From NCBI RefSeq assembly GCF_026151205.1, contig NC_087073.1, forward strand, positions 10,826,636-10,890,635: a DNA stretch of 64,000 nt, in the 5' to 3' direction. Origin of the DNA: Bolinopsis microptera. Taxonomy: Eukaryota > Ctenophora > Tentaculata > Lobata > Bolinopsidae. The notes beneath the pieces are model-generated. The model did no database searches. It was not told where the DNA came from and was given only the letters and a program-made list of their open reading frames with translations. Positions 9,951-59,852 of this stretch are shown here, one piece after another. The translations under genes were made by a program, and so were the position numbers. How positions within the stretch are numbered: position 1 is the first letter of the stretch; every line of letters starts with the position of its first letter.

Positions 9951-11411
9951 CTAACACATGTGCTCGTGCTTACACACTCCATCTGGGCACCTTGTCAAGC
10001 CAGGGTTACATCCCTCATTTCCATCTTCATCATCTTTCTCCTCGCACATTTTACATGTCTTCTGGCACTGGTCTTCGGCAAAGTAGGTATATTTGCACCA
10101 AATCGTTCTACAGTCGGAATAGTTATCCTCGCATTTTATTTTGCAGTACCCGCAAGTATCCCGGCACCACTCAAAAGCAAATGATTCATGCTTGCACATA
10201 TCTTTAACGCAACCTCTGCCCTTATCATTGCATGTAACGTTCTCATTATCGTCATCGTTCTCATTATCCTCATCGTTCTCATTATCCTCATTATCCTCAT
10301 CGTTTTCATTATCCTCATCGTTCTCATTATCCTCATCGTCCTCATTATCCTCATCAACATATGTAGACTTCTTATCGTTTATTCCTTCGTCTTTCTTACT
10401 GGTTGCTTTAAGTATCGGGTAGCCGTTAAATTTCCAAATTCCACAGCTGAAGTCATCTCTTGCTATCTTTATAAAACCTTTGTCTCCCCATGTTTTACCC
10501 CACGAGTTCTTGAGAAGCACGTATTCCTCGGTATATCCAACTCCAGTTACTGCGTGATTAACATGATCACGGCAAGTGGGGTCTTTAAAGACACCACTCC
10601 TGTAAGCATAGAAGGCATTTGTTACTTGTATAGCCATCCAAAGAGGACCGTCAGCAAGAGCTGCGATGGTAGAACTTTCACCAGCGGACACCTCTTGTTT
10701 TTCGACGATCTTGTACGCAACAGCCGCATTAGGGGTTGTTGTTCTTTTACATTCGCCCATTTTATTCTCGTAAGGGTAATCTTTTTCAGCTGAAAGTCGA
10801 CCTCCGTTGTTTTTTGAGTACACGTATGAATCAGAGGGCCATCCGCCTTTACAGCCATCTTGACTAATATGAGTGCAGGCTAAAAATTCTTGTTCTGAGA
10901 AGGCTCTCAATCTACTTGACTTTATTTTGTATCTTGATTCCATAGCACTTACTGCACCAAACGCCCAGCAAGCACCACACGAACCTTGACTTTTAACGGG
11001 TGTTACTGCTCCCTCTTTTACCCAGTTTACACTTTTGGGAGTGTATAGTTTAGTCTTAGACGAGGCTAACGGAGGTATGTTTGTGTTCGGTAGATGGCCT
11101 GTTGAGTTAAGTCCAAGCCATTTATGTTTCTCCCCGCTGCTCAGAGACGAGAAGAAGTTTAGTCCAAACTTAGCAGTTTCTTCTGGTGCAGAATTTAAAG
11201 TTGAAACCAACTGTGCATTCTTCTTAAACATCAGAAACCGAACCCTGTTCTCACTAGCGCCGAAATTGATATGCTCCTCTGCCTTGTATTGGCTGAACAG
11301 CTTTAATGTCTGTCCTGGAGATTGAAGAATCGACCCTAGCTTGAGCACAGGGACCTCCGAGATCGTTAATCCAACAAGGCATAATGCAATTGCTATCATA
11401 AACTGCCTCAT
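9951..11411 (-). CDS. Secreted papain-family cysteine protease with two ShKT domains (protease A)
   Basis: A single exon of 486 codons. Residues 1-18 form a signal peptide. Residues about 36-90 are an inhibitory I29-like propeptide. The peptidase C1A domain spans about 124-335, with oxyanion Q142, nucleophile C148 in QGSCGACWAF, H286 in VNHAVTG and N302 in KNSWG, so all catalytic residues are present. An acidic Asp/Glu/Asn repeat linker (353-391) leads to two ShKT six-cysteine domains (394-423 and 427-456) and a C-terminal Cys-rich segment ending KHEHMC. The family hydrolyses proteins in lysosomes or extracellularly. ShKT tails are common on cnidarian and nematode secreted enzymes and may bind partners. 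Protease B (13942-15270) is a tandem paralogue. The upstream 25 bp (ttgacgatcaagttattggg) is shared by both, marking duplication of promoter-proximal sequence too. Confidence 0.93.
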   Translation of the reverse strand: MRQFMIAIALCLVGLTISEVPVLKLGSILQSPGQTLKLFSQYKAEEHINFGASENRVRFLMFKKNAQLVSTLNSAPEETAKFGLNFFSSLSSGEKHKWLGLNSTGHLPNTNIPPLASSKTKLYTPKSVNWVKEGAVTPVKSQGSCGACWAFGAVSAMESRYKIKSSRLRAFSEQEFLACTHISQDGCKGGWPSDSYVYSKNNGGRLSAEKDYPYENKMGECKRTTTPNAAVAYKIVEKQEVSAGESSTIAALADGPLWMAIQVTNAFYAYRSGVFKDPTCRDHVNHAVTGVGYTEEYVLLKNSWGKTWGDKGFIKIARDDFSCGIWKFNGYPILKATSKKDEGINDKKSTYVDEDNEDDEDNENDEDNENDEDNEDNENDEDNENDDDNENVTCNDKGRGCVKDMCKHESFAFEWCRDTCGYCKIKCEDNYSDCRTIWCKYTYFAEDQCQKTCKMCEEKDDEDGNEGCNPGLTRCPDGVCKHEHMC

Positions 11412-13941: not shown

Positions 13942-15270
13942 CTAACACATGTGCTCGTGCTTACACACTCCATCTGGGCACCTAATCAAGCCAGGGTTAC
14001 ATATCCCATTTCCATCTTCACCATCTTTCTCCGCGCACATTTTACATGTCTTCTGGCACTGGTCTTTAGCAAAGTAGGTATATTTGCACCAAATCGTTTT
14101 ACAGTCAGAATAGTTATCCTCGCACGCAGTGTTCTCATTATCGTCTTCAGAAGAGTCTTCTTGATCTTCACTATTACCTTCATCGCCATATCCAGACTTT
14201 TTATCGTTTATTCCTTTGTCTTTCTTCCCTGTTGCTTCAAGCATCGGGTAACCCGCGTTCCATTCTTTCCACAGCCCACAGCTGTCGTGATTCCTTGCCA
14301 CCTTCATGAAACCCTTTGCTCCCCATGTTTTACCCCACGAGTTCTTGATAAGCACGTATGTCTCAGTATATCCGACTCCAGTTACTCCGTGATTAGGCTG
14401 ATCCCCAATGCAAGTGGTATCTTTAAAAACACCACTTCTGTAAGCAAAAAACGCATTAGTAACTTGTAAAGCTATCCAAATAGGACCTTCGGCAAGAGCT
14501 GCGATGGAAGAACTTTCACCAAGAGGCAGCATTTCCCCTCCGATGATTTTGAGCGCAACAGCCGCATTTGGTGTTTTTGTTCCTCTACATTCGCCCATTT
14601 TACTCTCGTAAGGGTAATCTCTTTCAGCTGCAAGTCTACCCCCGTGGTTTGTTGAGTAATCGTATGCCAAAGTGGGAAACCCGCCACCACAGCCATCTTG
14701 TTTCTTGAATGATTCTTCTCGACCCTGAGAAAAAGTGCAGTCTAAATATTCTTGCTCCGAGAAGGCTCTCAATCTACCTGACTTTATTTTGTATCTTGAT
14801 TCCATAGCACCTACTGCACCAAACGCCCAGCACGAACCACACGAACCTTGCTTTTTAACGGTTGTTACTGCTCCCTCTTTTACCCAGTCCACACTTTTGG
14901 GAGTGTTATATGCTTTAGATGATACCAACGAAGAAATGTAAGTGTTCAAAGGACGGCCTGTTGTGTTAAGTCCGAGCCATTTATGTTTCTCCCCGCTGCT
15001 CTGAGATGAGAAGAAGTTTAGTCCAAACTTAGCAGTTTCTTCTGGTGCAGAATTTAAAGTTGAAACCAACTGTGCGTTCTTCTTGAATATCAGAAACCGA
15101 ACCCTGTTCTCACTAGCGCCGAAATTGATATGCTCCTCTGCCTTGTATTGGCTGAACAGCTTTAATGTCTGTCCTGGAGATTGAAGAATTTGCCCTAGCT
15201 TGAGCACAGGGACCTCCGAGATCGTTAATCCAACAAGGCATAATGCAATTGCTATCATAAACTGCCTCAT
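13942..15270 (-). CDS. Secreted papain-family cysteine protease with one ShKT domain (protease B)
   Basis: A single exon of 442 codons, paralogous to protease A. The first 60 residues, covering signal peptide and propeptide, are almost identical between the two. Catalytic residues are Q141, C147 (QGSCGSCWAF), H294 (PNHGVTG) and N310 (KNSWG). Compared with A it has an 11-12 residue insertion after the QEYLDCT segment (SQGREESFKKQ), a much shorter acidic linker (363-380) and only one ShKT domain (383-412), corresponding to the second of A. The C-terminus ends in the same KHEHMC motif. Both genes lie on the minus strand 2.5 kb apart, consistent with tandem duplication followed by gain or loss of one ShKT module and divergence of the mature enzyme. 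Confidence 0.93.
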   Translation of the reverse strand: MRQFMIAIALCLVGLTISEVPVLKLGQILQSPGQTLKLFSQYKAEEHINFGASENRVRFLIFKKNAQLVSTLNSAPEETAKFGLNFFSSQSSGEKHKWLGLNTTGRPLNTYISSLVSSKAYNTPKSVDWVKEGAVTTVKKQGSCGSCWAFGAVGAMESRYKIKSGRLRAFSEQEYLDCTFSQGREESFKKQDGCGGGFPTLAYDYSTNHGGRLAAERDYPYESKMGECRGTKTPNAAVALKIIGGEMLPLGESSSIAALAEGPIWIALQVTNAFFAYRSGVFKDTTCIGDQPNHGVTGVGYTETYVLIKNSWGKTWGAKGFMKVARNHDSCGLWKEWNAGYPMLEATGKKDKGINDKKSGYGDEGNSEDQEDSSEDDNENTACEDNYSDCKTIWCKYTYFAKDQCQKTCKMCAEKDGEDGNGICNPGLIRCPDGVCKHEHMC

Positions 15271-15764: not shown

Positions 15765-16193
<429 letters not shown>

Positions 16194-17089: not shown

Positions 17090-17621
17090 TAACCTAGTAA
17101 CAGTAACCTAACAACAGTGATCTAGCAAAAGTGACTTAGTAACAGTGATCTAGCAACAGTGACCTAGCAACAGTAACATAACAACAGTGACCTAGCAACA
17201 GTAACATAACAACAGTGACCTAGCAACAGTGATATAGCAACAGTGATCTAGCAACAGTGACTTAGAAACAGTGACATATCAACAGTAACATAGCAACAGC
17301 AACCTAACAACTGTTGATAAGTCACTGTTCCTAGGTCACTGTTACTAGGTTACTGTTGCTAGGTCACTGTTGCTAGGTCACTGTTGATAAGTCACTGTTG
17401 CTAGATCACTGTTGCTAGGTTACTGTTACTAGGTCACTGTTACTAGTTTAATGTTGATATGTTACTGTTGCTATGTTACTGTTGCTATGTTACTGTTGCT
17501 ATGTCACTGTTGCTATGTTACTGTTGCTATGTTACTGTTGCTAGGTCACTGTTGCTAGGTCGCTGTTGCTAGATCACTGTTGCTAGGTCACTGTTGCTAG
17601 GTTACTGTTGCTAGGTCACCG
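17090..17621. repeat. Inverted pair of 14-bp minisatellite arrays
   Basis: From 17090 to about 17311 the unit is cagtgacctagcaa, about 15 copies. From about 17312 to 17621 the unit is its reverse complement ttgctaggtcactg, about 22 copies. The centre (caacctaacaactgttgata) is the turning point. The pair can fold into a hairpin several hundred bases long. Three more units reappear at 18622-18660. Confidence 0.92.
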
Positions 17622-19368: not shown

Positions 19369-22300
19369 ATGGCTGATGATGTGGAAGAACAGCTACTGTC
19401 GGAGGTGCAAAAAAAAGATGGTACTATTACACTGCACCAGGCTGCTCAAAAAGGGGAAATCAAGTTAGTAAATGATTGTCTGGTGGATGTGCATATAAAC
19501 GTTAGGGACAAATACAGTAGGACACCCATTATGTACGCGGCATGGACTGACGAAATAGAAATGGTTAAGCATCTACTGAATCTCGGATCTGATATAAATT
19601 TGATGGATAACAGTGGGTGGAATATCTTACATCACGCAGTGCAGAAGGACTCTATGAGAACTGTAGAATATCTTTGTGTCGAAATACCAACAAATGCTGC
19701 TACCTCATTAGTAAACGCTAAAGACCCACACGGCATGACACCCTTACATATGGCAATCAAAAGAGGATCCAGTAAGGAATTGATTTTAAATCTTTTTAAA
19801 ATAGTTGGAATTGATGTAGAAATCAAGAATTCGACGGGAAAGACAGCCTTGATGTACGCTTTGGAGGTTAATAGAATTGACATGATAGACATAGTAAACA
19901 TTGTATGTCAGCACAAAAATGTTTTCTTAGAAAAAGACGATTACGGATTGAATATCTCACATTATGCCGTGATGAATCACAAGTCGTTAGAGTTGATTAA
20001 GTGTCTTCTCCGCAATGGATCGATCAATAATGCTTCTTTGGTGATCAGTAAGGATAATATTATGGTAACACCGTTTCATCTTGCAACATCTAGAGGCAGT
20101 GTCGAACTAGTTTTATTCTTGCTGAAAATCGACGAAGTTGATGTGAATGTTAATGATAATTCCGGAGAAACAGCGTTGATGCATGCAACAAAAGTAGGAA
20201 AAACTAATGTTATCAAAGCCCTCATTGCTGATGACCGGGTAGAAGTCAACTATTGTGATAAAGCCGGAAGAACTGCGTTGATGCATGCAACGAAAGCAGG
20301 AAAAACTGATGTTATCAAAGCCCTCATTGCTGATGACCGGGTAGAAGTCAACCATTGTGATAAAGCTGGAAGAACTGCGTTGATGCATGCAACAAAAACA
20401 GGAAAAACTGATGTTATCAAAGCCCTCATTGCTGATGACCGGGTAGATGTCAACTTTTGTGATAAAGCCGGAAGAACTGCGTTGATGTATGCAGCAAAAG
20501 CAGGACAAACTGAGGTTATCAAAGCCCTCACAACTGCAGATGACCGGGTAGAAGTTAACTATCGTGATAAAGCCGGAAGAACTGCGTTAATGTATGCAGC
20601 AGAAGCAGGACAAACTGAGGCTGTTCAAGTCCTCACGACAGATGACCGGGTAGATGTCAACTATCGTGATAAGTTTGGAAAAACTGCGTTGATCTATGCG
20701 GCAGAAGCAGGGCAATTTAAGGTTATCAAAGCCCTCAAAACTGTTGACCGGGTAGAATTCAATCATTGTGATAAGGCCGGAAAAACAGCCGTGATGTATG
20801 CAGGAGAAGCACGACAAATTGAGGTTATCAAAGCCCTCACAACTGATGACCAAGTAAAAGTTAACCATCGCGATAAGTTCGAAAGAACTTCGTTGATGCA
20901 TGCGGCGAAAGCAGGACAAACTAAGGTTATCAAAGCCCTCGCAATTAGTGACCAGGTAGAAGTCAACCATCGTGATAAGGCCGGAAGAACTGCGTTGATG
21001 TATGCAGCAGAAGCAGGACAAATTGAGGTTATCAAAGCCCTCACAACTGATGATCGAGTAAAAGTCAACCATCGTGATAAAGTCGGAATGACCGCGGTAA
21101 TGTATGCGGCAAAAGCAGGACAAACTGAGGTTATCAAAGCCCTCCTAACTGATAACCGGGTAGAAGTCAACTATCAAGATAAGTACAAAAAAACTGCGTT
21201 AATCTATGCAGCAAAAGCAGGACAAACTGAGGTTATCAAAGCCCTCATAACCGATGGACGGGTAGACGTCAAGGCGGTCAACCATTGTGATAAGGCCGAA
21301 AGAACTGCGTTTATGTATGCGGCAAAAGAAGGAAAAATTGAGGTTATCAAAGCCCTCACAACCGATGACCGAGTAGAAGTCAACCATCGTGATAAGACTG
21401 GAAAAAATGCGTTGATGTATGCAGCAGAAGCAGGACAAACCGAAATTATCAAAGCCCTCATAGCTGATGAACAGGTAGAAGTCAACCATCGTGATAAATC
21501 CGGAAGAACTGCTCTTCTTCTGGCGATGAAAGAAAAACAATTTGAAGCAGCTTGCATTTTAGTCGATAATGTGGAAAAACTTGTATGTTCAATAGGAGAC
21601 AATTCTGGATCAACTCCCCTAATCTTGGCTCTTGAAGCAAATCACAGGCATTTGATTCATGCAGTTGTGAACAAAATAAATATAAACAATGAGGATGTGA
21701 ACTTGGCTAATGCAAAAGGAGCAACGATTCTTCATACTGGAGTGAGCAAAAATGATATTGAGCTCGTAAAACTGATATGCCAAAATCCACATGTGAAAAA
21801 CGTCAAAAACATCGAAGGTCTAACTCCAATCGACATTGCTGTTAAGGAAAAGCTTTATCCGATGTTATGGATACTGGTGCAAGATTTACCGCCGGAAGAG
21901 ATAGATATTAACAAGTCGTACGAAGAAGGGGACACACTGCTTCATTTCGCTGTGAAACAAGGCAACCTTGACGCAGCCAGGTGCATCTGCTCCCTTCCTG
22001 GTGTTAAACGCAGAGAAAACGACAGTAGCGTTGATCCGTTACAACTGGCAAATTCAGAGAATTTGTCATTACACTTCCTCTTGTGCATCTACAAACTTCC
22101 CGGCACCAAAGTCGATATAAATGCGCAATACCAAGGAAAGGGAATTATCCATATAGCAGCCGAGCTTCGTGATCTGGAAGAATGTAACTACTTACTAAAC
22201 GAATTCTCTAATATTGACGTAAACGCCAGGGACAGTGAAGATAGGACTGCGTTACACATAGCAGCAGCCAATACAGATGTGGATACTGCGAAAGCCCTTT

Positions 22301-30924: not shown

Positions 30925-33090
30925 ACTTAAAGGGTGTTCAAGGGTTTTCTATTGATGTACCAGAACGGTGAGATTAAGGCAAAGATCAAATATGAGAATA
31001 AAGTGACTAAATTGTTTAAGTTAAATTGTAAACCTCTTTTTAATTACCTTAAATCTAAAAGTATTTTAAGAAAATCTGTAGAAAGACTTAAAACAGATGA
31101 TGGTTCTGAGACCAAGTCTCCTTCTGAAACGGCAGAAGTGTTAGCTGATTTTTTCCAGTCAGTTTTTAAACCTGAACCTTTTGGCCCTCTGCCTCAAAAT
31201 TGTTATACAGAATGTAATAATGATTACTTCTGGAGTAAATTTATGGTGCACCCTGAAAGTGTTGCCAAGATTTTGGGATCACTAGATATTAGTAAAGCTA
31301 TGGGTCCTGATGGTGTTCATCCTAGACTCCTGAGGTATTTAAGTGAGAACAGTTCCTTTGTGGATGCGGTTGTGTTGCTGTTTAGTGCCTGTGCTTCTGA
31401 GCAGTATATTCCTGAGGTATGGAAAACTGCCACTGTTGTGGCCTTGCACAAAAAGGGGTCAGTACATAGTCCTAATAATTACAGGCCTGTGTCACTGACT
31501 TGTATACTATGCAAAGCCTATGAGAAGCTTCTTAGGGAGTATATTCTCGACGGTGTTGAACAGGTGCTTAGTAGCACGCAGCACGGCTTCATGAAGGGTC
31601 GGTCATGCTTATCTAACCTACTGGAGTCTATTGACGCTGTCAATGACTTGCTGGCTGAAGGTGGCTGTGCTGATATATTATACTTTGATTTCTCTAAGGC
31701 CTTTGATAGCGTACCACACCACCGTTTATTAGTTAAATTAAGAAATGTTGGTGTTCCTGAGGAGATAATTGGTATTTTAGAAAACTTTTTAGTAGGGAGG
31801 TCTATGAAAGTTAAAGTAGGAGATGAATTTTCTGAGATTAAGTATATACTTTCAGGAGTGCCCCAAGGCAGTGTTTTGGGACCATTGCTCTTTCTTTTAT
31901 TTGTAAATGATCTTCCAGAAGGAATCAAAGCTATCATCAAACTTTTTGCTGATGATGTTAAAATGATTGTTAATCCTTTTATTAATCTAACAGCTGATTT
32001 GAAGTTGCTAGAACTTTGGGAGTCTCGTTGGTGTTTAAATTTTAATGTAGATAAGTGTATGGTCATGCAAATTGGTTCTTGTAATCCTAAGAATCAGTAC
32101 TTGTTTGGTGGTGTGCCTTTGCGATGTGTTGAAAGCGAGAAGGACCTTGGAGTTGTCTTTAACACCAGCTTCAACTTTGAGGGTCATGTGAGAAAGTGCA
32201 TTGCTAAAGCTAATAGTACCATTGCCTGGCTTACAAGAAATATTATATCGAGGGAGAAAAGCGTTATGCTGGGCTTGTATAAGTCTTTAGTAAAGCCTCA
32301 TATAGAGTATTGTTCACAGGCATGGGCTCCAATGGCTAGGCATGGAAACTGGTCACTGATTCTTGAATTGGAAGGTGTTCAAAGATCGTTCACCCGTATG
32401 ATTGATGGATTGGGACTCATGACGTACAGAGAGAGACTGGATAAGCTGAACCTCACAACCCTGCTTGAACGCAGGGTTCGTGGAGATCTCATTGAGATGT
32501 TCAAGATCCAGGAAGGCTTTGTGGGTTATGGTTCCGATTTATTTGGTCGTTCTGGTAGGACCGTTGCTGCTAGATCAAAGACTCATAGATTCACCACAAA
32601 TGAGACTGATTTCTTTGCCCAAAGGGTCTTGCGCTATTGGAACAGTCTACCACCACTTGTGAAAGCTAGTGAGTCAGTTACTGGTTTCAAGAGGGGATTA
32701 GATGCCTTTCGGCTTCATGGATATCGAGCTAATAAGCTTGGTCATCACTGGGAACTTTCATATGACATCTTTGATAGGATAGATGTGTCTGTGTCTAATA
32801 GGAATAGTTATGTAAGTTATATGAAAGAGAATCCATTGGTAGCTAAGAGGAAGAAGGTTAATATCAAAGGTATTTAATTAAATTTTTTTAAAGTTTGTAA
32901 TTATATGGTTTCAAACGTAAAGTGTTCATTTTCTATGAATTTCTTTTTGAGATGCCCAGAGAGGCATTATTTATAATGTTATGTTATGTTATGTTATGTT
33001 ATTGAATTTATATTGAATTTTATATAGGGTAATTGTTATATTATGTGTATATTGTTTGAATAAATTCTCCTCTCCTATAAAAAAAAATTT
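30925..33090 (+). mobile_element. LINE, 5'-truncated, intact reverse transcriptase
   Basis: An open frame of about 647 codons (30934-32877) with no internal stop. RT blocks are visible in order: AMGPDGVHPRLLRYL, NNYRPVSLTCILCKAYEKLL, QHGFMKGRSCLSNLL, YFDFSKAFDSVPH, SGVPQGSVLGPLLFLLFVND and LFADDVKMI, followed by the connection domain with EKDLGVVFNTSF. The apurinic endonuclease that normally precedes RT is absent, so this is a 5'-truncated copy. The 3' UTR ends with repeated atgtt and a short A-run (33076-33087). The style (SKAFD, LFADD) fits CR1/jockey-like elements. An intact frame implies young age. Confidence 0.92.
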
Positions 33091-43491: not shown

Positions 43492-46400
43492 TCACTGGTT
43501 GGGTGAGGAAACTCCAATAGCCTGAACCTCACAAAGTGTCAGATAATCACCGTTCTGTGTTACCTTTATGTAATCCCCTATAGCACCTCCACAGTCCACT
43601 TCGTATACAACCTTGCCAGTTTCATAAGTAATCGCCCCGCAGTATGTGCCCGCTACATATACCTGGGGTTAGATGTTATAGTGAGGCACCCTGAGAGATA
43701 TTGGGCACTGGGAAAATGGTGGGTAGAGTATTCTGGTAACTCTTCAATATTGAAAGATTAGGTTGAGAAACTGATTGAAAACTACTAAGGATAACACAAG
43801 GACAGTAGCTTCTAACCTGGACATTATTGATTCTATTGCTGACAGTCGAGTCTGTTGTGAATAATGACCTTACTCACTGAAGCTCTCTCAGATAGCTTAC
43901 CGTTCCACCAGTTTTGTTCATGGTCGGAAGAGTGGGTACATGTCCTGAAGATATCATTTTATTTTTGCTGCCTAAATTTTATTTTATTTTACATATGAAT
44001 TGTTTTTTAGCTCTATATCGATCATAAACCGGCCAATTGCTTTATTTCCTGATATTTTATCGTTTTCATTTTCAATTACCAGCAGAATGCGATGACCCAA
44101 GATTTAAATTGAGCTATCAACTTAGTACTTACTTGGAGGAATAGAAGCCGTTAGTATTACCGTCAATAGCCAATTTTGCAACCCCACCCCAACCGGTGGT
44201 TTTTTGTGTGGCGCTGATGAACTTAAGTTCTTCGGCTGTTTAAAAGTTCAGTTATGGTTATATTACCGAACAGGAATGTTAAAAGTATTACCAATGTTGA
44301 AAGTTCCTTAAAAAGAAAATAATTGTATTTGTATTGGTAAAAAAATTCATTTTACAGTTATGTTAATAAAAAATGTCCTTTTACTATGAAAATGGACGAT
44401 CTATATGAAATAATAACACCAGGGAAATGAAAGGATGATGATACACCTTAACTATAGGTTTAAAAAATCTAATTACTATTAGGGCCTAAGAAGATCTTTC
44501 GATTTTTAAAGAAATCTTAAACATTAAAGGGTTCTAAGGAAAAACTAACCGCAATCTGGGACCACACACCAGTCCCATCGTTTGCTAGGATCGGTCGTGT
44601 AACACCATGTTTCATGGTACTTTTCTGCTGGGTTCCTACAGTAGTTGTGATCCAATCCTTTGCCTGGATAACTGCAAGGAAAGGTCTTAGGTCAGTGGAC
44701 GATCAGATTTATTAAAAAAATGAAACGCTTAGCTGAAAAGTACCACTGTTCACTTGTAATTAATTATTGTACATATTTAAAGTTTGGAAATTGCTAATAT
44801 TTGTGGTTTATTACCATTACTTACTGAAAAGCAGTGTACATATGTCTGTGAGGGGATTGGCTAGACCACTCCTGACAAGTATAGCCCGATTTAGTCTTTG
44901 ATTGAGATCCTTCGTACGCGTATCCTTTATTTGCCCTATCTCTTTGGGCCAACATCCAATATCTGTTTAAATGGTTTCTTGGTCAAAATTCTAGCTTATT
45001 TTGTATTTGACAACTTGAAATCTGTCTATACTCGATTAAGGGTTGCTTATGGAAGGAATTTAAGACGCTCCCACTAAATCGCTCGCCCAAATTTTGAGAA
45101 AATTCTTGTGACAAGGCCCTGAGGGTATGAAAGTAATTTAAGAGCCAATTTAAGTAGCTAACATGGTAACATACCCTATTTCTGAACTCATTCTGCTGCA
45201 TTTTAGATACTGTTACTTACCCTCCTAATTGCCTCCAGTAACCATTGTGCCTCCAGTAACCATTGTGCCTCCAGTAAACATTGTGCCTCCAGTAACCACT
45301 GTGCATCATGCGACCCTTAAGTGACCCTTAGATGCGCGCTAATCATCGTGCAACAATTAATGATACCCAATCTGAAACCATAAATTGCATAGCTTGAGAA
45401 GATTTCACCCTTATAAAAGCCAAAACTCCCTTACCAGTACCTGATTCACAAGCATATTCGTGGCACCCGATCGATTTTGATTCTTCTCCCTGGCATTCTG
45501 CTCCACCATTTTCTGGCGCTGGGTTTTCGCAGGTCCTGTACTTCGTCATAGTTCCTCCACCACATTCAACAGTGCAGTGAGTCCAACTTCCGAAGTCAGT
45601 CCACCCACCATCAACTGGACAGCCTTGTATGTTGCAAGCCTGGATTTCTACGTCACCTCCCTGGCATTCAGCTCCGCCATTTTCAGGTGCAGGGCTATCG
45701 CATGACCTCATCCTATCCTGAGATCCTCCGCCACATTCTGCAGAGCAATCAGACCAACCACCGAAGTCAGTCCACCCACCATCAACTGGACATCCTTGTG
45801 TGTTGCAATCCTGGCTTTCTGAGTCATCTCCCTGGCAATCAGCTCCGCCATTTTCAGGTGCAGGGCTAACGCAGGACCTCTTCCTTTCCTGAGATCCTCC
45901 ACCACATTCTGCAGAGCAATCAGTCCAACTTCCGAAGTCAGTCCACCCACCATCAACTGGACATCCTTGTGTGTTGCAATCCTGGCTTTCTGAGTCATCT
46001 CCCTGGCAATCAGCTCCGCCATTTTCAGGTGCAGGGCTAACGCAGGACCTCTTCCTTTCCTGAGATCCTCCACCACATTCTGCAGAGCAATCAGTCCAAC
46101 TTCCGAAGTCAGTCCACCCACCATCAACTGGACATCCTTGTGTGTTACAATCCTGGCTTTCTGAATCATCTCCCTGGCATTCAGCTCCGCCATTTTTAGG
46201 TGCAGGGCTATCGCAGGACCTCATCCTATCCTGAGATCCTCCACCACATTTCGCAGAGCAATCAGACCAACCACCGAAATCAGTCCACCCGCCATCAATT
46301 GCGCAACTTTTACCACAATTCTTTGCTTTTTTCTCCAACTTGGCACAATGTTTGTGTTTTTTGCCTTTCATTGGTTTCTTTGTGCTGTACTTGCATCCTA

Positions 46401-51791: not shown

Positions 51792-54700
51792 TTAAAACTC
51801 TTGACTCTTTCTGACGCAGGCTCGGACTCGTTTCTTGAACTCACCGTTGTAGTCGTCTCTAAACTGTTTCTGTAAGGGTAAAATTCATGGTTAATATTTA
51901 ATATCGCACTATTACGGAGAAATATTTAGTCCTATCGGCGTAAGATTTACTGATTATTACAGATTAGTTATGAACCTAATATAACCTCTTTAAAGGTATA
52001 AACTGGTCCTTAAAATTTAAAACATGCCAGTTTTTAACAATCGCGACGAACACTGCACAGTGAACACTTATCAGGACTGATTCTCAGCTTACAGCTTAGT
52101 TTCAATGCAGGTTGTTACCTATTGAACATAATAGTGATCGGTTGCAACATTTCCAACCGTATTGTAATTTGAGAAACAAAGTTTGAGATGACGGATGGAA
52201 TTTCGCACCGATTTATCATTTACGTATTATATTTACGCGATCTATTTTATTTTCAGCGAATGAATGTGTCAGTTCGACATATTTAAAAAAAACTTTCCTT
52301 GAGAAGTTAGTCATTTCATTATTCGATCGGAGACAATTTACAGATCAGTTTCGCTGAATCTCAGTAAGTAACACGTTCAGCCTTTAGGTGAAAATATCCT
52401 GGAAGAACGTGACGACAGGTTACATTAGGTGAAGCAGGAAAACGAGTCTGAAGGGCCAAATAGCAGGTGAAAAGGTATTTGAGATATCCGGTCTGGGTGT
52501 CTGTTGCTCACGAAGGTGTTTAAAATCTTTTATGACAAGAAATTAGGTAATCGGTCAGATGCTTTTAAACCGGCCTGATTTCTACTTAAAACTGAAAATA
52601 GCACGAGCACGTACGTACGCGCGTGCGCTCTTCTTTTCGGAGAATTAGATACACAATGATTTGCGTTTCGCGCGCTACTGTACAAATTTAAAGTAGACCT
52701 TATAGAGATTAGTTTGATCCGGTCATGTGCTTAGATAATATGGGCTAATAAACTGAAAGTTGCACGAAATTGATAACAATCCTAATCAAGATTATGAATC
52801 ATCCCAGGATGAGGAAGAAAACACGATCGCCATAAAATTAAGGCATAATGCAACTGGTGACGTTATCCAGCTGTTCAGCCCATCCTCTATTTTCCGGCAT
52901 TCCCCAAAAAAAGGAACAAATATTACAAATATTACAAATATTACAAACCGCTGCCTCCACGTTAGCGGGAGATTCATCGTTAGGATCTGCGAGCATGCTG
53001 ATAACACTGATAAGGATAGTCTCGATAGTGTGGATTGGGAGCCACCTCATCCCCGCATCCTCGTAACCGTACGCATCCTCCCCCGGCTCGTGCAGGATAC
53101 TGATGCACACCACTCCGTTCTTTTCAACTGTAACACATAATGTTACATACACTCATACAACTGTTACACAAACTACTCCGTTCTTTTTAACTGTAACACA
53201 TAATGTTACATACACTCATTCAACTGTTACACAAACTACTCCGTTCTTTTCAACTGTAACACATAATGTTACATACACTCATTCAACTGTTACACAAACT
53301 ACTCCGTTCTTTTCAACTGTTAAAGTTTGTTACTAGCCGTAAAGATTTTAAGAGGCTCTCATCAGCCAAAATAAGAGATAATCTTTTTAATAGTGATGAT
53401 CCAGCGCTTATAACTAAGAAGTTTTGGTCACATGTTAAGTATAAATCTAACTCCTGCCGTATTCCTAATTGTGTTAGTTATTCTGGACAGCTTCGGTTCA
53501 ATCCCAAAGATAAAGCTGAACTTTTCAATTCTTTCTTTTATAACCAGTTTTCGGATCCTTCACTTTATGACACTGACATCTCCTATGTCAATGATGTTGA
53601 TTTTGATATTGACTTCGATCATCGGGATGTTCGTAAGCTTCTTTCAAATATTAATTCAAATAAAGCCCAGGGACCAGATGGCATACACGGTAAAATTCTA
53701 AAAAATTGTTCCGTAGGTTTAGCTTACCCTCTAACATGCATTTTTCGTGGATCCTACAACAGCGGCTACATTCCACAAGAATGGAAACTTGCAAATGTTG
53801 TCCCAATATTTAAGAAAGGTCAGAAAAGTGAGGTTGAAAACTATAGACCAATATCCCTTACTTGTTTAGTCATGAAAGTTTTTGAGCGCATTGTTAAACG
53901 TAAACTGCTTTCTTTGACAAGTACCCTTCTCGATCCCAGGCAGCATGGTTTTCTAGAGCACAAGTCATGCACAACCAATATGGTTGATTTTTGTGATAGC
54001 CTGGCATTGTCTCTTAACGAAAACATTATCAATCATGTTGTGTATTTTGATTTTGCTAAGGCATTTGATTCTGTAAATCATGATACCCTTCTTCATAAGC
54101 TAAAGACCTTATATAACATTGATGGTACACTTCTCAAATTTCTTACCAATTACCTTCAAGGCCGTTACCAAAGAGTGGTTATTGGTAATGAGATGTCATC
54201 TACCCTCTCAGTTAATTCTGGTGTCCCCCAGGGCTCTATCCTTGGTCCCTTACTTTTTGTATTGTTTATCAATGATATTCCTCTTGGCCTTTCGGATAAT
54301 ACTGATATTGTTTTGTATGCCGATGATACAAAAATCTGGCGTAAAATACATTCATCTTCTGATAATACCAATTTACAAATGGATATAGACTATCTCTCTG
54401 ACTGGGCACTTAGAAACAAAATGCGATTCCATCCAGCAAAATGTAAAGTGCTTATTGTTTCAGGAAAACCATCTTTATCTCCTCCATTCGCATATAATCT
54501 TGATGGCTCTCCTCTTGTGTATGTAGAGTTAGAAAAAGATCTTGGAGTCGATGTTACTCCTAAGCTCAGTTGGAATAGTCAGTGCGACAGAATTTATACT
54601 AAGGCCTGCCAACAACTTGGTATGGTCAGAAGAGATGGCCATATTGTCATTGATCAGAAACGTCGCCGGGCGCTTTACCTCTCCCTGGTTCGTAGCCAAT

Positions 54701-57700
54701 TCGAAAATTGTTCCATAATCTGGCGCCCTTGTAATAAATCACTTAGTGATAAATTAGAAAGTCTCCAAAAGAGAGCTATTAAATGGATTCTGTCTGAAGA
54801 GGGCCGCAGTTATCCACCTGAGCAATATGTCAAAAAGTGCAAGCTTGTCGACATTCTCCCTTTGTCTCAAAAGTTTGACTTGAATGATCTTATTTTTTTC
54901 CACAAAGTTCTGAACAATTTAATTCCTGTATCGCTGCCTCACTATCTCACTTTATATCAGGGCACTTCTCGACTAAGACGTTGCCACCTCGACAGTCTGT
55001 CTATTGTGTCATCAATTTTACCTAAGTTAAGTCAGAATTCACACACCTTATGTACCTCAAATAGCCCACTGGCAAAATCATTTTTCTACAGAACTCATAT
55101 ACTGTGGAATGGACTCCCTTTACAGGTAAGACAGATTGTGTCTACAAGTGTTTTCAAAGCTGAGGTCACTAAGCATCTATGGAAATGTTTATTGGATAGT
55201 GAAACAACAGCCTAGCCTAGTCTCTTTGCTCCCCATATTATTATTATTTTTGTTTTATTAATTTTTTATCTACCTTCCTATACTTTCAACATCATATCAC
55301 ACTTCACCCGCACACCTCACACATTAATGACCATATCAGACCTGTATCTAATGTATCTGGAATTTGACGTATTGAAATACCAATTTTGACTATATATCCA
55401 CAGTTATTCACCATGGATTTGTTTGTTATTAAATAGTTTTTCATAAATTTTTGGATTTAGATTAATTCGATGTAATGGGTCCAAGTTACTGCGGACATAG
55501 TTCACTATGTGTTTACCGTGTTTGGGTGCCCATCATATTTTACAGATGGGGGCGATATTTTGAACGATTCTATTTTATATTCATCTATTGCTGTACTCTG
55601 TAAAATTTGAAAAGTATTTAATAAAAAAAAACACATAATGTTACATACACTCATGCAACTGTTACACAAACTACTCCGTTCTTTTCAACTGTAACACATA
55701 ATGTTACATACACTCATACAACTGTTACACAAACTACTCCGTTCTTTTCAACTGTAACACATAATGTTACATACACTCATACAACTGTTACACAAACTAC
55801 TCCGTTCTTTTCAACTGTAACACATAATGTTACATACACTCATACAACTGTTACACAAACTAATCCGTTCTTTTCAACTGTAACACATAATGTTACATAC
55901 ACTCATACAACTGTTACACAAACTACTCTGTTCTTTTCGACTGTAACACATAATGTTACATATACTCATACAACTGTTACACAAACTAATCCGTTCTTTT
56001 TAACTGTAACACATAATGTTACATATACTCATACAACTGTTACACAAACTACTCTGTTCTTTTCGACTGTAACACATAATGTTACATATACTCATACAAC
56101 TGTTACACAAACTACTCTGTTCTTTTCGACTGTAACACATAATGTTACATATACTCATACAACTGTTATACAAACTAATCCGTTCTTTTTAACTGTAACA
56201 CATAATGTTACATATACTCATACAACTGTTATACAAACTACTCCGTTCTTTTTAACTGTAACACATAATGTTACATATACTCATACAACTGTTACACAAA
56301 CTACTCCGGTCTTTTCGACTGTAACACATAATGTTACATATACTCATACAACTGTTACACAAACTACTCCGTTATTTTCGACTGTAACACATAATGTTAC
56401 ATACACTCATACAACTGTTACACAAACTACTCCGTTCTTTTTAACTGTAACACATAATGTTACATATACTCATACAACTGTTCAAAACCACTCCGTTCTT
56501 TTCAACTGTAACACATAATGTTACATTCACAAACTACTCCGTTCTTTTCAACTGTAACACATAATGTTACATACACTCATACAACTGTTACACAAACTAC
56601 TCCGTTCTTTTCAACTGTAACACATAATGTTACATACACTCTACAACCGTTACACAGAGTAGGTATAATGTAGGTTTCAGTGTCACGGTTGTGACAGCCT
56701 TATGTCACATGTGGGATGTAACATACTTAATTATTATCCAGCATTACAGCTCATAATATCACATAATACATTATGTGCGGGTATTATATAAGGTAAGCAG
56801 GGACATTAGGTTTAATTGTGTGGGCCAGTAAAAGTTATTAAATATTAATAACTTTAATGTGTCACCATAGATTCTTACATGAAAATTGAACGCTGTATAA
56901 TCCATTTATCACCATTTATGACGTCACGAACTTTCGTGAGTAGTTAACACAGGGCAATATTAGCTTTAGAGGGTTTTAGAATATAGATCAAATTTCATTA
57001 TCTTTAATTGAGTCCTGAATAGAGATGGGTATTGGCTGTCCTTAATAAGACCCAATTAGCGGGGATTAAGTAATTAGTGGGGATTAAGGCAGTGTCTGAT
57101 TACTTTGCAGATAAGTGAACGTTTTAGATATATCATAATGTATAGTACTGGGGATTGTCTATAACAATACATAGAACTAGATAAATACAAGAGAGTAAAT
57201 CTACACGATATATACACGATATGTAATAAACGTCATGTTGTGGAATACAGAGTTTGAAATGTATATTATTCCACATATCATAGTTTTAATGTTGAAGCGT
57301 GTAATGAATGTTAGAAATTATTCATTATTATTATTGTCATTATTAGTAATATCATTATCTGAACAGTGTAATATACAGATATATTTATATTGTATATAAT
57401 ATATATATAATAATATAGATGGAGGATGTCAACTAAGTTTGACAATGTCACTTAATAAAGACAAGATATTACGACCAAAATAGAATATATGAATTATGGA
57501 TTTAGATTAGAACTTTATTAAAATTCCGGTTCAGTATATCTCTATAATTCGGATATAATATGTTAAAATATTCAATATGTATCATGTATTTATTATGTAC
57601 AATGTATATCATTAATAAAGCTTAACAGTCAACTATCCATTTTAAAATGAGACTAATCTACTCAACCAAATATCCCTTCTACTATCTGAATGTAATAAAT

Positions 57701-59852
57701 TAAGAATACCAAATTTCAAAATGGCAGTATAACCAGATAACTATTTGAGATAAACTACAACAAATAGACAGTTGAGATGAAATGAAATACTGTGCGTCAC
57801 GTATTAAATCGCCCATAGGGCTAGCAACTGAGACAAGTGTCAGGTACTAACCATGTCAGAGCAGTTCTAAATAGTGAGGTGAAAATATTCAGCAAGTTCA
57901 TTATACAGCTACATCATCTCAAAAACACATCTACTCAGAAAACATCACAGTAAAAATTAAAATGCTAAATAAATGTTTGAGTTGAGAGTACGTACCATGC
58001 TAAATAAATGTTTGAGTTGAGAGTTATACGTACCATGCTAAATAAATGTTTGAGTTGAGAATACGTACCATGCTAAATAAATGTTTGAGTTGAGAGTACG
58101 TACCATGCTAAATAAATGTTTGAGTTGAGAGTACGTACCATGCTAAATAAATGTTTGAGTTGAGAGTACGTACCATTGGGATGCCACATCTCGGAGACAA
58201 ACTTCATGACTGGGGGACGGTTTGGATACTCCTTTGGGAACTGTAGGATAGCTCTGAAGTAACCTCCCTCGCTGGGAAATAAGTTACAATTAGAAATAAG
58301 TAGTTAGTAAGTGATTAGTAAACAATTTTGTTGTAGAACATGATTTCACATTAATCACTGAAGTAGTTTGGAGTTCACCCAAAAATTCTACGTTCTGACT
58401 TCTGACCAGATTAATATCTACCGTCTTATAGCTAGCGTCAAACTTTAAAACAAAATTACATGCTAATTAAGTACTGTGATTTGGTTCCGTCATCTTGAAG
58501 ATCCGCTATGTAATTACCCAAGTAAATACACTGGCCAGTGTGTCACACCATACTCTACACAACTTCACGAGAGTTTGTCACACACGGGCTGTGTAGTGTG
58601 TGGATGGTCCGGTCTGTCTCTAATTTTGCGATATGACACCAGGGATATTATTTATGTTTCCAATGTGTTTAGTGGAGTAAGTACTTACAGTGTACTTACA
58701 GTGTACTTACAGTTTACTTACAGTTTACTTACAGTGTACTTACAGTTTACTTACAGTGTACTTACAGTGTACTTACAGTTTACTTACAGTTTACTTACAG
58801 TGTACTTACAGTTTACTTACAGTGTACTTACAGTTTAGTTACAGTGTACTTACAGTTTACTTCTAGTGTACTTACAGTGTACTTACACTGTACTTACACT
58901 GTACTTACAGTTTACTTACAGTGTATTTACAGTATACTTACACTGTACTTACAGTTTACTTACAGTTTACTTACACTGTACTTACAGCGTACTTACACTG
59001 TACTTACACTGTACTTACACTGTACTTACACTGTACTTACACTGTACTTACACTGTACTTACACTGTACTTACACTGTATTGACATGATATGATGCACAG
59101 TGTATTGAAACAGGATTCAGGATTGGTTCACTGAATCACGCTATCACGTGACATAAATTACGATTTGCCACATGCCTCATTTTCTGATAATAATTCGAAT
59201 ACCAATATTATGCTATATAAGCCATGCTATATACAATATTATGCTAAAGATGTCCGTGTTGTCTAATTATCGCTACTATAACTAACTAGAAAATGGGCCC
59301 AAAGATCACCTTGAAATTATGGTTAAGGCTAATGATGATAACTGCTAATGATGATAACTTACTAGAAAGTTTCGTAAGGTCCAATGACCATGACGTCCCA
59401 TTTGAAGAGATCGCTATCATCCACTAGTCCGGCTGAGAACCCCTCTGTACTGGATTTCTGCAACTCTGAAATACCTCTGTTAAATACCATTTACAGCTGC
59501 ATTTTATTTTGTTCCAGAAGCTTGTTATTCTTTTCTCGGCGGGGGGGGGGTCAATAACAAATCGCCTTAGTTAAAATGTTACCGCAAAATCAATGGGTCA
59601 TGGTCTAGAATATTGTTGATGGTTCCGTAATAATATTAAGTAATAATATTAAGTAATTGAACTTTACCTAAAAGTTACTAAGTAATAATATGAAGTAATT
59701 AATTAATTAATAATTACTTACAAGTTACTAAGTAATAATATTAAGTAATTAATTAATTAATTATTACCTACAAGTTATTAAGTAATAATATTAAGCAATT
59801 AATAATTACCTACAAGCTGTTTCTTCAGAAGCAGCGCTGCTGCTGATTCCAT
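51792..59852 (-). CDS. UBE2G1: Ubiquitin-conjugating enzyme E2 G1-like
   Basis: Five exons on the minus strand: 59852-59810, 59465-59363, 58271-58174, 53127-52949 and 51869-51792. All borders are GT-AG and every phase fits, giving 166 residues (vertebrate UBE2G1 is 170). The UBC fold is complete: [32 protein letters not shown], the HPN motif at 79-81 and catalytic C89 in [13 protein letters not shown]. The acidic G-type loop after the cysteine ([15 protein letters not shown]) and the C-terminal [14 protein letters not shown] are specific to the G1 branch. The protein transfers ubiquitin from E1 to E3 partners, building K48/K63 chains. Tandem arrays sit at its splice junctions, and a LINE is inserted in intron 3. 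An acceptor-like tctctatttag lies 15 nt before the ATG. Confidence 0.94.
52921..52949 (-). repeat. 9-bp tandem repeat at the exon 4 donor of UBE2G1
   Basis: Three to four copies of attacaaat (minus strand atttgtaat) begin immediately at the donor gtttgt. The first unit overlaps the splice site. Confidence 0.8.
53106..53320 (-). repeat. 63-bp minisatellite, left block (exon 4 acceptor copies)
   Basis: Units of 63 bp contain, on the gene strand, tatgtgttacag|ttgaaaag followed by aacggagt. This equals the 3' splice site plus the first 16 nt of exon 4 (first base 53127). The real site plus three further copies (53190, 53253, 53316) are present before a LINE interrupts the array. Confidence 0.93.
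53321..55630 (+). mobile_element. LINE inserted in the 63-bp array, intact RT frame
   Basis: An open RT-coding frame without internal stops (to TAG at 55213-55215). The blocks are [82 protein letters not shown] and LYADDTKIW, then [15 protein letters not shown]. It is 5'-truncated: no endonuclease is present, and element sequence starts at about 53321. The 3' end is an A-run at 55623-55630. The array unit is cut at ctgt|(aa)cacataatg, with no obvious target duplication. The element is on the opposite strand to the host gene UBE2G1. It differs from the 30.9-kb LINE (YADD versus FADD) and is a separate family. Confidence 0.93.
55631..56650 (-). repeat. 63-bp minisatellite, right block, 16 copies
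   Basis: Continuation of the left block after the LINE. Sixteen copies of the acceptor-containing unit occur at an exact 63-bp period, apart from one shortened unit near 56480-56530. The plus strand is open as a 21-residue Thr-rich repeat ([20 protein letters not shown]) for most of its length, but this is antisense to the gene and not supported as coding. Confidence 0.93.
56651..57959. other. Remainder of UBE2G1 intron 3
   Basis: Very AT-rich with no reading frame of note. No other element recognised. Confidence 0.5.
57960..58173 (-). repeat. 35-bp tandem array at the exon 3 donor of UBE2G1
   Basis: Plus-strand unit atgctaaataaatgtttgag ttgagagtacgtacc, five copies plus the real junction. 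On the gene strand each unit presents atg|gtacgtactct, matching the true exon 3 end (aatg|gtacgtactct). The array begins directly at the donor. Confidence 0.95.
58676..59082 (-). repeat. 11-bp array of GTAAGT-containing units in UBE2G1 intron 2
   Basis: About 36 copies of agtgtacttac or agtttacttac on the plus strand. On the gene strand the unit is gtaagtacact, so each copy carries a consensus 5' splice-site hexamer. Variation is mostly g/t at one position. Confidence 0.95.
59335..59367 (-). repeat. 16-bp direct duplication at the exon 2 donor
   Basis: On the gene strand the donor gtaagttatcatcattagc is followed by a second agttatcatcattagc. Two copies abut the splice site. Confidence 0.75.
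59620..59815 (-). repeat. About 57-bp tandem array at the exon 1 donor of UBE2G1
   Basis: On the gene strand the junction cttgtag|gtaattatta is followed by about three more units containing aacttgtag|gtaataatt, aacttgtaa|gtaattatt and aacttttag|gtaaagttc, spaced 50-60 bp. The spacers are ttaattaatt and ttaatattattac. Confidence 0.85.

Follow-up and report, generated by a model that had tools for sequence, protein, structure and literature searches.

Are tandem repeats drawn to the ends of introns, and what allows them to stay there? The question is raised by a UBE2G1 gene in the ctenophore Bolinopsis microptera, located in a stretch of 64,000 nucleotides that was analyzed as a whole and is referred to here as the window. 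A preliminary description had proposed that repeat units contain the splice junction itself in every intron of this gene, and had suggested either a repair process acting at splice junctions, such as one involving R-loops, or selection for redundant or decoy splice sites.

Tandem arrays in the UBE2G1 gene

The gene occupies the minus strand at 51792-59852 and consists of five exons separated by four introns of 344, 1091, 5046 and 1079 nt (introns 1 to 4), all four of which are GT-AG. Joining the exons gives a 166-aa protein with a Pfam UQ_con match, and with the draft protein, read by eye, as the query, the best match among solved structures is the UBE2G1 chain 6d68_A (E 4.8e-83). On the minus strand, the coding part of exon 1 lies at 59810..59852 (donor CTTGTAG|gtaatt, phase 1), exon 2 at 59363..59465, exon 3 at 58174..58271 (donor AATG|gtacgt), exon 4 at 52949..53127 (acceptor ttacag|TTGAAAAG) and exon 5, with the stop codon at its end, at 51792..51869. 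GC content of the window is 32-41% when measured in 4-kb steps.

Several other features of the window are worth recording. Two similar long open reading frames on the minus strand, at 9951-11411 and 13942-15270, look by eye like tandem duplicates, each with a Cys-rich C-terminal tail, and the second matches Peptidase_C1 and the cathepsin propeptide domain. Long tandem repeats occur within coding open reading frames at 20154-21512 (102-bp ankyrin units) and 45478-46298 (171-bp thrombospondin type 1 units). At 15765-16192 the dinucleotide TC is repeated about 214 times in a row, and a large tandem-repeat palindrome spans 17092-17619, where an array of the 14-bp unit ACCTAGCAACAGTG (x 15.7) meets one of its reverse complement (x 22.1) at ~17310. 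A reverse-transcriptase open reading frame of 647 aa with an RVT_1 match is located at 30934-32877 on the plus strand, and is the second in the window after the one described below.

Arrays in UBE2G1 were identified with Tandem Repeats Finder and then listed unit by unit. The splice junction is contained within the repeat unit at three of the eight junctions, which belong to two of the four introns rather than to all of them as first proposed, and five of the eight are touched by a repeat or lie no more than 4 nt from one. At the exon 1 donor (59627..59817, minus strand), four copies of CTT[GT]TA[AG]|GTAA are found at 59816, 59774, 59724 and 59674, giving spacings of 42, 50 and 50, and each unit includes 7-8 exonic nt. 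The exon 3 donor array (57962..58176, minus strand) is composed of six copies of a 35-bp unit, one of them 38 bp long, and ATG|GTACGTA, with three exonic nt per unit, is present in all six. The largest of the three arrays is at the exon 4 acceptor, where a unit of mostly 63 bp that includes 16 identical exonic nt is present in 20 copies. Copy numbers of about four, six and about 20, and the 16 exonic nt, had all been given in the preliminary description and are borne out here.

A retrotransposon fragment divides this acceptor array into an upstream part of 16 units (55630..56656, minus strand) and a downstream part of four (53112..53320, minus strand), which includes the real junction, ends 16 nt inside exon 4, and has its first unit truncated at the insertion. 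The fragment itself lies on the plus strand at 53322..55629, its ends being approximate and placed by eye, and an open reading frame at 53266-55215 gives an RVT_1 match. It sits in the run-up to the TTACAG of one unit and by eye looks 5'-truncated with an A-rich tail at its end; no clear target-site duplication was seen by eye at the fragment.

TTACAG is present in all 16 upstream units. These were picked by a motif containing TTACAG, so that this block of the alignment is fixed by construction, and unit spacing, which leaves no room for a hidden unit, serves as the independent check. Across the 16 units there are nine changes in the 28 intronic columns (0.32 per column) against 20 changes in the 29 exon-like columns. 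Selection on the splice sites was considered and set aside, as the AG is invariant yet the remaining intronic part shows few changes too. When 53127-53095 is compared with the units at 55694-56620, the unit continues beyond the 16 identical exon bases to read V-V-C as exon 4 does, three codons with synonymous differences only. The 63-bp unit may perhaps hold an older copy of exon 4, or have had a longer exonic origin.

A dispersed satellite caught at the splice sites was one candidate. The arrays of exons 3 and 4 were each searched for in the genome (264.65 Mb in 232 contigs), and among the best-scoring candidates the sole match to the exon 3 donor array is its own locus, while the 63-bp array is likewise confined to this locus apart from three weak matches of 68-69% on C9. 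The candidate is therefore rejected for both arrays, which appear to have been born in place.

Three further repeats in the introns of UBE2G1 exclude the junction. A perfect duplication of 16 bp (2 x 16 bp, 59328..59359, minus strand) starts at position +4 of intron 2, and a 9-bp repeat of 3.6 copies (52916..52947, minus strand) starts at position +2 of intron 4. These correspond to the previously noted duplication at the exon 2 donor and the three to four copies of the exon 4 donor region; the repeats are indeed there, but the first leaves the GT uncopied and the second lacks the junction. Without a unit that spans the junction, which is the mark of the lancelet "mirages" discussed below, both are classed as ordinary intronic repeats. 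The third is an array internal to intron 2 of about 36 units of 11 bp, GTAAGTACAGT / GTAAGTACACT (58681..59079, minus strand), as had been reported; it lies 283-681 nt from the donor, and by eye only GTAAGT is common to both.

Could so many arrays have come to lie beside junctions by chance? Random placement of eight UBE2G1 arrays yielded five near-junction arrays in none of 20,000 trials, and an intron-by-intron test of nine arrays returned P about 7e-5. Both tests are post hoc, given that the gene was picked for the feature, and so overstate the surprise. At the rate of 11 in 183 seen in other genes, and assuming independence, five of eight near-junction cases would be expected in about one gene per some tens of thousands. 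Subject to this post hoc caveat, the three arrays whose units carry a real junction are too regular for chance within UBE2G1, and on these arrays the preliminary description was right.

Splice junctions of other genes

To place UBE2G1 in context, we assembled a sample of 90 loci, consisting of the best 30 of 73 Myosin_head matches, the best 30 of 41 UQ_con matches and the best 30 of 109 Kinesin matches, which merged with the window amount to 302,098 bases. To locate splice sites we combined a simple matrix, which favors G at the exon start, with constraints of frame and profile. After removal of three UBE2G1 junctions, 183 junctions remained, drawn from 51 of 75 candidate exon pairs plus 81 less certain single edges, with some kinesin genes that are near-duplicates counted twice. 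Kinesin and ubiquitin-enzyme exon pairs of equal or near-equal score were seen at C11:11303567/11341653, C13:4982550/5070304 and C8:12977133/C34:8196, which points to recently duplicated genes or to residual haplotype copies.

UBE2G1 is not the only gene with junction-spanning arrays, as four of the 183 junctions, three of them acceptors, also lie in such arrays. An acceptor array in a UBE2W-like gene is composed of 10 copies of a 45-bp unit that includes 26 exonic nt, is in frame and contains no stops, and CAT replaces CAG in three of the 10 copies. The acceptor array of a UBE2G2-like gene has at least 32 full copies of a 47-bp unit with 34 exonic nt (the sampled stretch starts inside the array), of which 30 of 32 are identical and all 32 have CAG. 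A KCBP/KIFC-like kinesin gene has seven copies of a 49-bp unit, with 21 exonic nt, at an acceptor, and a second kinesin gene has two copies of a 53-bp unit at a donor. Follow-up searches of their own back the identities of the first three exons, and the fourth gene was identified by its Kinesin match alone. Two further spanning cases were left out of the four: the sequence at C2:20663290 consists of low-complexity TAGTAT, and the repeat at C7:8358006 (12 bp x 1.9 copies, score 39) fell below the cut-off. Sampled arrays intrude 1-34 nt into exons and never deeper. These observations suggest that junction-spanning arrays are not rare in this ctenophore genome.

By hand count, the exon starts with GT, so that the unit reads AG|GT, in three of the four acceptor arrays compared with 17 of 51 ordinary acceptors. 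This proportion was judged not unusual, and AG|GT was not taken as a signal of recursion.

Whether arrays prefer junctions is a separate matter, on which the evidence is mixed. Repeats with a period of at least 7 and a score of at least 50 make up 11.8% of the window, and in the remaining sampled sequence the figure is 8.3%. Repeats of at least that score cover 6 of the 183 junctions (3%), compared with 11-15 of 183 positions from +10 to +60 inside introns, 9 of 183 at +100, 15 of 183 at +200, 15 of 182 at +300 and 19 of 181 at +400, or 5-10% between 100 and 400 nt. A genome-wide survey with repeats no more frequent at junctions than within introns had been named in advance as the result that would count against the original proposal, and the lower coverage at junctions comes close to it. 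Array edges, however, give a different picture. Eleven edges fall within -40..+10 of a junction where 5.1 are expected (P 0.007), seven against 2.85 when at least three copies are required (P 0.01), and seven against 1.96 under a stricter requirement still (P 0.004), so that the excess across the whole sample is 2.2-3.6-fold (P 0.004-0.01). Junction-spanning arrays number five where random placement gives 3.76 (P 0.33). This placement test ignores unrecognized exons and therefore leans towards finding a preference.

A length-aware test restricted to 51 resolved introns detected no preference of arrays for intron ends, with three observed and 3.4 expected (P 0.72), and other cut-offs gave one against 0.7 and five against 6.4. 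The resolved introns are mostly short, and introns with long arrays are lost as both ends must be present in one stretch, so this test leans in the opposite direction. No sense-strand bias was found among 123 arrays of known strand, although cases are very few, with GTRAGT seen once in sense and twice in antisense and TTNCAG twice in each.

We also searched the whole genome for splice-like words occurring three times at a spacing of 20-50 bp. The donor words AGGTAAGT and AGGTGAGT gave 1380 and 1294 matches against 12 and 185 when reversed, the acceptor word TTTNCAGG gave 1320 against 214, and the mutated donor word AGCTAAGT gave 218 against 3. Because the mutated control is itself 73-fold over its own reverse, the forward-to-reverse ratio is a poor yardstick and is driven by a few large arrays. 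The counts are of matches and not of arrays, which need not lie at exons. Counting by hand among approximately the first 100 matches listed for each word, we found seven arrays for AGGTAAGT (to C2:3.99 Mb), nine for AGGTGAGT (to C1:17.65 Mb), 13 for TTTNCAGG (to C2:22.05 Mb) and three for AGCTAAGT (to C3:6.23 Mb), and outside arrays the same words occur 8, 6, 61 and 6 times in the sample. Expressed per occurrence outside arrays, both donor words are ~5-fold over the mutated word, whereas the acceptor word is 0.6-fold of the mutated word and ~2-fold over its own reverse, a normalization based on word counts of 3-61. Separately, arrays of one 32-bp unit, which begins AGGTAAGTACC, are present at both C1:36576-37703 and C1:761375-762150, so that this donor-like word belongs to a satellite with more than one location.

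Origin and persistence of the arrays

The explanation that we favor, to which we assign a probability of roughly 0.7, is that of neutral duplications arising in a genome rich in repeats and tolerated since the exon-proximal copy is used, the arrays being minisatellites of the "mirage" type. Where tandem duplications are abundant, some would by chance include a splice junction together with a few exonic bases, and such a duplication could be tolerated as every copy would be a complete splice site. The copy used would be the one beside the intact exon body, that is the first of a donor array and the last of an acceptor array, as anticipated from exon definition. The extra copies would remain intronic, where they could expand, contract and homogenize as ordinary minisatellites do. 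We infer the use of the exon-proximal copy, for which protein homology speaks, exon definition as its reason, and the neutrality of the arrays. In UBE2G1, choice of a wrong copy would result in a frameshift or a stop in the units of all three arrays, so that, provided the gene is functional, splicing must mainly use the copy nearest the exon. The reading also accords with the recurrence of junction-spanning arrays in other genes, the shallow reach of sampled arrays into exons, the near-exclusive confinement of the two searched arrays to this locus and RT-PCR results on lancelet mirages (PMC3087553). The lower repeat coverage at junctions than in intron interiors is what random duplication combined with purifying selection is expected to produce. 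When flanking introns are large, preference reportedly goes to the splice sites that lie nearest to each other across the exon (PMC9225289). Three results weigh against neutral duplication, namely the five of eight junctions affected in UBE2G1 (P about 7e-5, post hoc), which exceeds neutral expectation, the near-junction edge excess in other genes, and the number of splice-like words found in threes above that of the mutated donor word.

The same three results are what would be anticipated if mutation were linked to splicing or transcription, such that duplications start preferentially at junctions, for example from R-loops or breaks on nascent pre-mRNA. Clustering near junctions in UBE2G1 and the edge excess in the sample both fit, as do the 1294-1380 matches of AGGTAAGT, AGGTGAGT and TTTNCAGG against 218 for AGCTAAGT. 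On the other hand, neither the resolved introns (3 against 3.4) nor the spanning arrays (5 against 3.76) depart from random expectation, splice-like words lack a sense-strand bias in the few cases available, and the mutated control exceeds its own reverse 73-fold in what are counts of matches and not of arrays. We regard junction-directed mutation as improbable, though not remote. A combined scheme, in which transcription or splicing favors tandem duplication at junctions and the exon-proximal copy is reliably chosen among at least 30 identical copies, with onward resplicing between copies at AG|GT possibly helping, seems to us doubtful to a similar degree.

Redundant or decoy splice sites might instead have been selected for, the copies being regulatory and serving for example to delay or tune the splicing of UBE2G1. 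This could account for the conservation of the sites themselves, as TTACAG is retained in 16 of 16 upstream 63-bp units, CAG in 32 of 32 UBE2G2-like units and ATG|GTACGTA in six of six exon 3 donor copies. Yet the 63-bp unit shows few changes elsewhere in its intronic part as well, so that its splice site does not stand out, and three of 10 UBE2W-like copies read CAT instead of CAG. Homogenization accounts for the uniformity, and unrelated genes share the feature. Selection of this kind is accordingly quite unlikely. Thus neither of the two mechanisms put forward in the preliminary description is clearly supported.

That the AG|GT units are on their way to becoming new introns or coding repeats, representing intron gain or exon extension under way, is more unlikely again. 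The three AG|GT acceptor arrays and the in-frame, stop-free 45-bp unit of the UBE2W-like gene would suit such a process, but a third of ordinary acceptors (17 of 51) also start the exon with GT, the units of UBE2G1 introduce a stop or shift the frame, and no new intron was seen. An assembly artefact, with repeats collapsed or expanded, is highly improbable: copy numbers of arrays are hard to assemble and the 47-bp array shows hardly any variation, but units are distinguished by shared point changes and indels, several genes have similar arrays, and the retrotransposon fragment splits the UBE2G1 array with the unit present on both sides.

Relation to known systems and significance

Repeats whose units contain the splice junction had been thought not to be described. 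In fact, exon-intron-spanning minisatellites are known from lancelets, where they were named "mirages" in the Adh3 gene and also affect globin genes, at 5' as well as 3' borders (PMC3087553), and further cases concern PGBD5 and troponin C (PMC3902484). The lancelet units are about 10 to 160 bp long and keep the AG/GT signals in many copies (PMC3087553, PMC3902484), haplotypes of BflGb6 have six and three units, RT-PCR suggests that splicing is undisturbed by the mirages, and a model based on the globins proposes that AG|GT units give rise to new introns or coding repeats (PMC3087553).

The ctenophore arrays resemble the mirages reported for Adh3, the globins BflGb6 and BflGb9, troponin C and PGBD5 in that a unit spanning the exon-intron boundary occurs in several genes, here as three arrays in UBE2G1 and four elsewhere. 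Both 5' and 3' boundaries are affected, at the exon 1 and 3 donors and the exon 4 acceptor of UBE2G1, and the exon 3 donor and 63-bp arrays are locus-specific and derived from the gene's own sequence. They differ in being from a ctenophore genome, in the presence of three arrays in one gene, and in being described from the sequence of one assembly. At 32 copies the UBE2G2-like array also exceeds the three and six units of the BflGb6 haplotypes. A 1995 paper reportedly describes a minisatellite with splice donors as its units, whose copies supply donors in a transcript, whereas the copies described here are candidate splice sites. For the potato RdRp gene, intron gain by tandem genomic duplication has been described (PMC4974935), which is similar to UBE2G1 in that a tandem duplication within a gene involves splice signals, but there a new intron was made whereas in UBE2G1 the ends of existing introns are multiplied. 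Among the papers listed by a literature search, none concerned minisatellites or other repeats at splice sites in ctenophores, which is weak evidence that none has been published.

The finding is thus a new example of a known oddity and not a new mechanism. What is remarkable about it is the density of arrays in UBE2G1, the copy number in the UBE2G2-like gene and the ctenophore host, by which a lancelet curiosity is extended to a ctenophore genome. Each array is a natural experiment in which many identical splice sites stand in a row, and as such could reveal whether duplications begin at junctions more often than elsewhere, and whether splice-site choice is set by exon definition or by intron definition.
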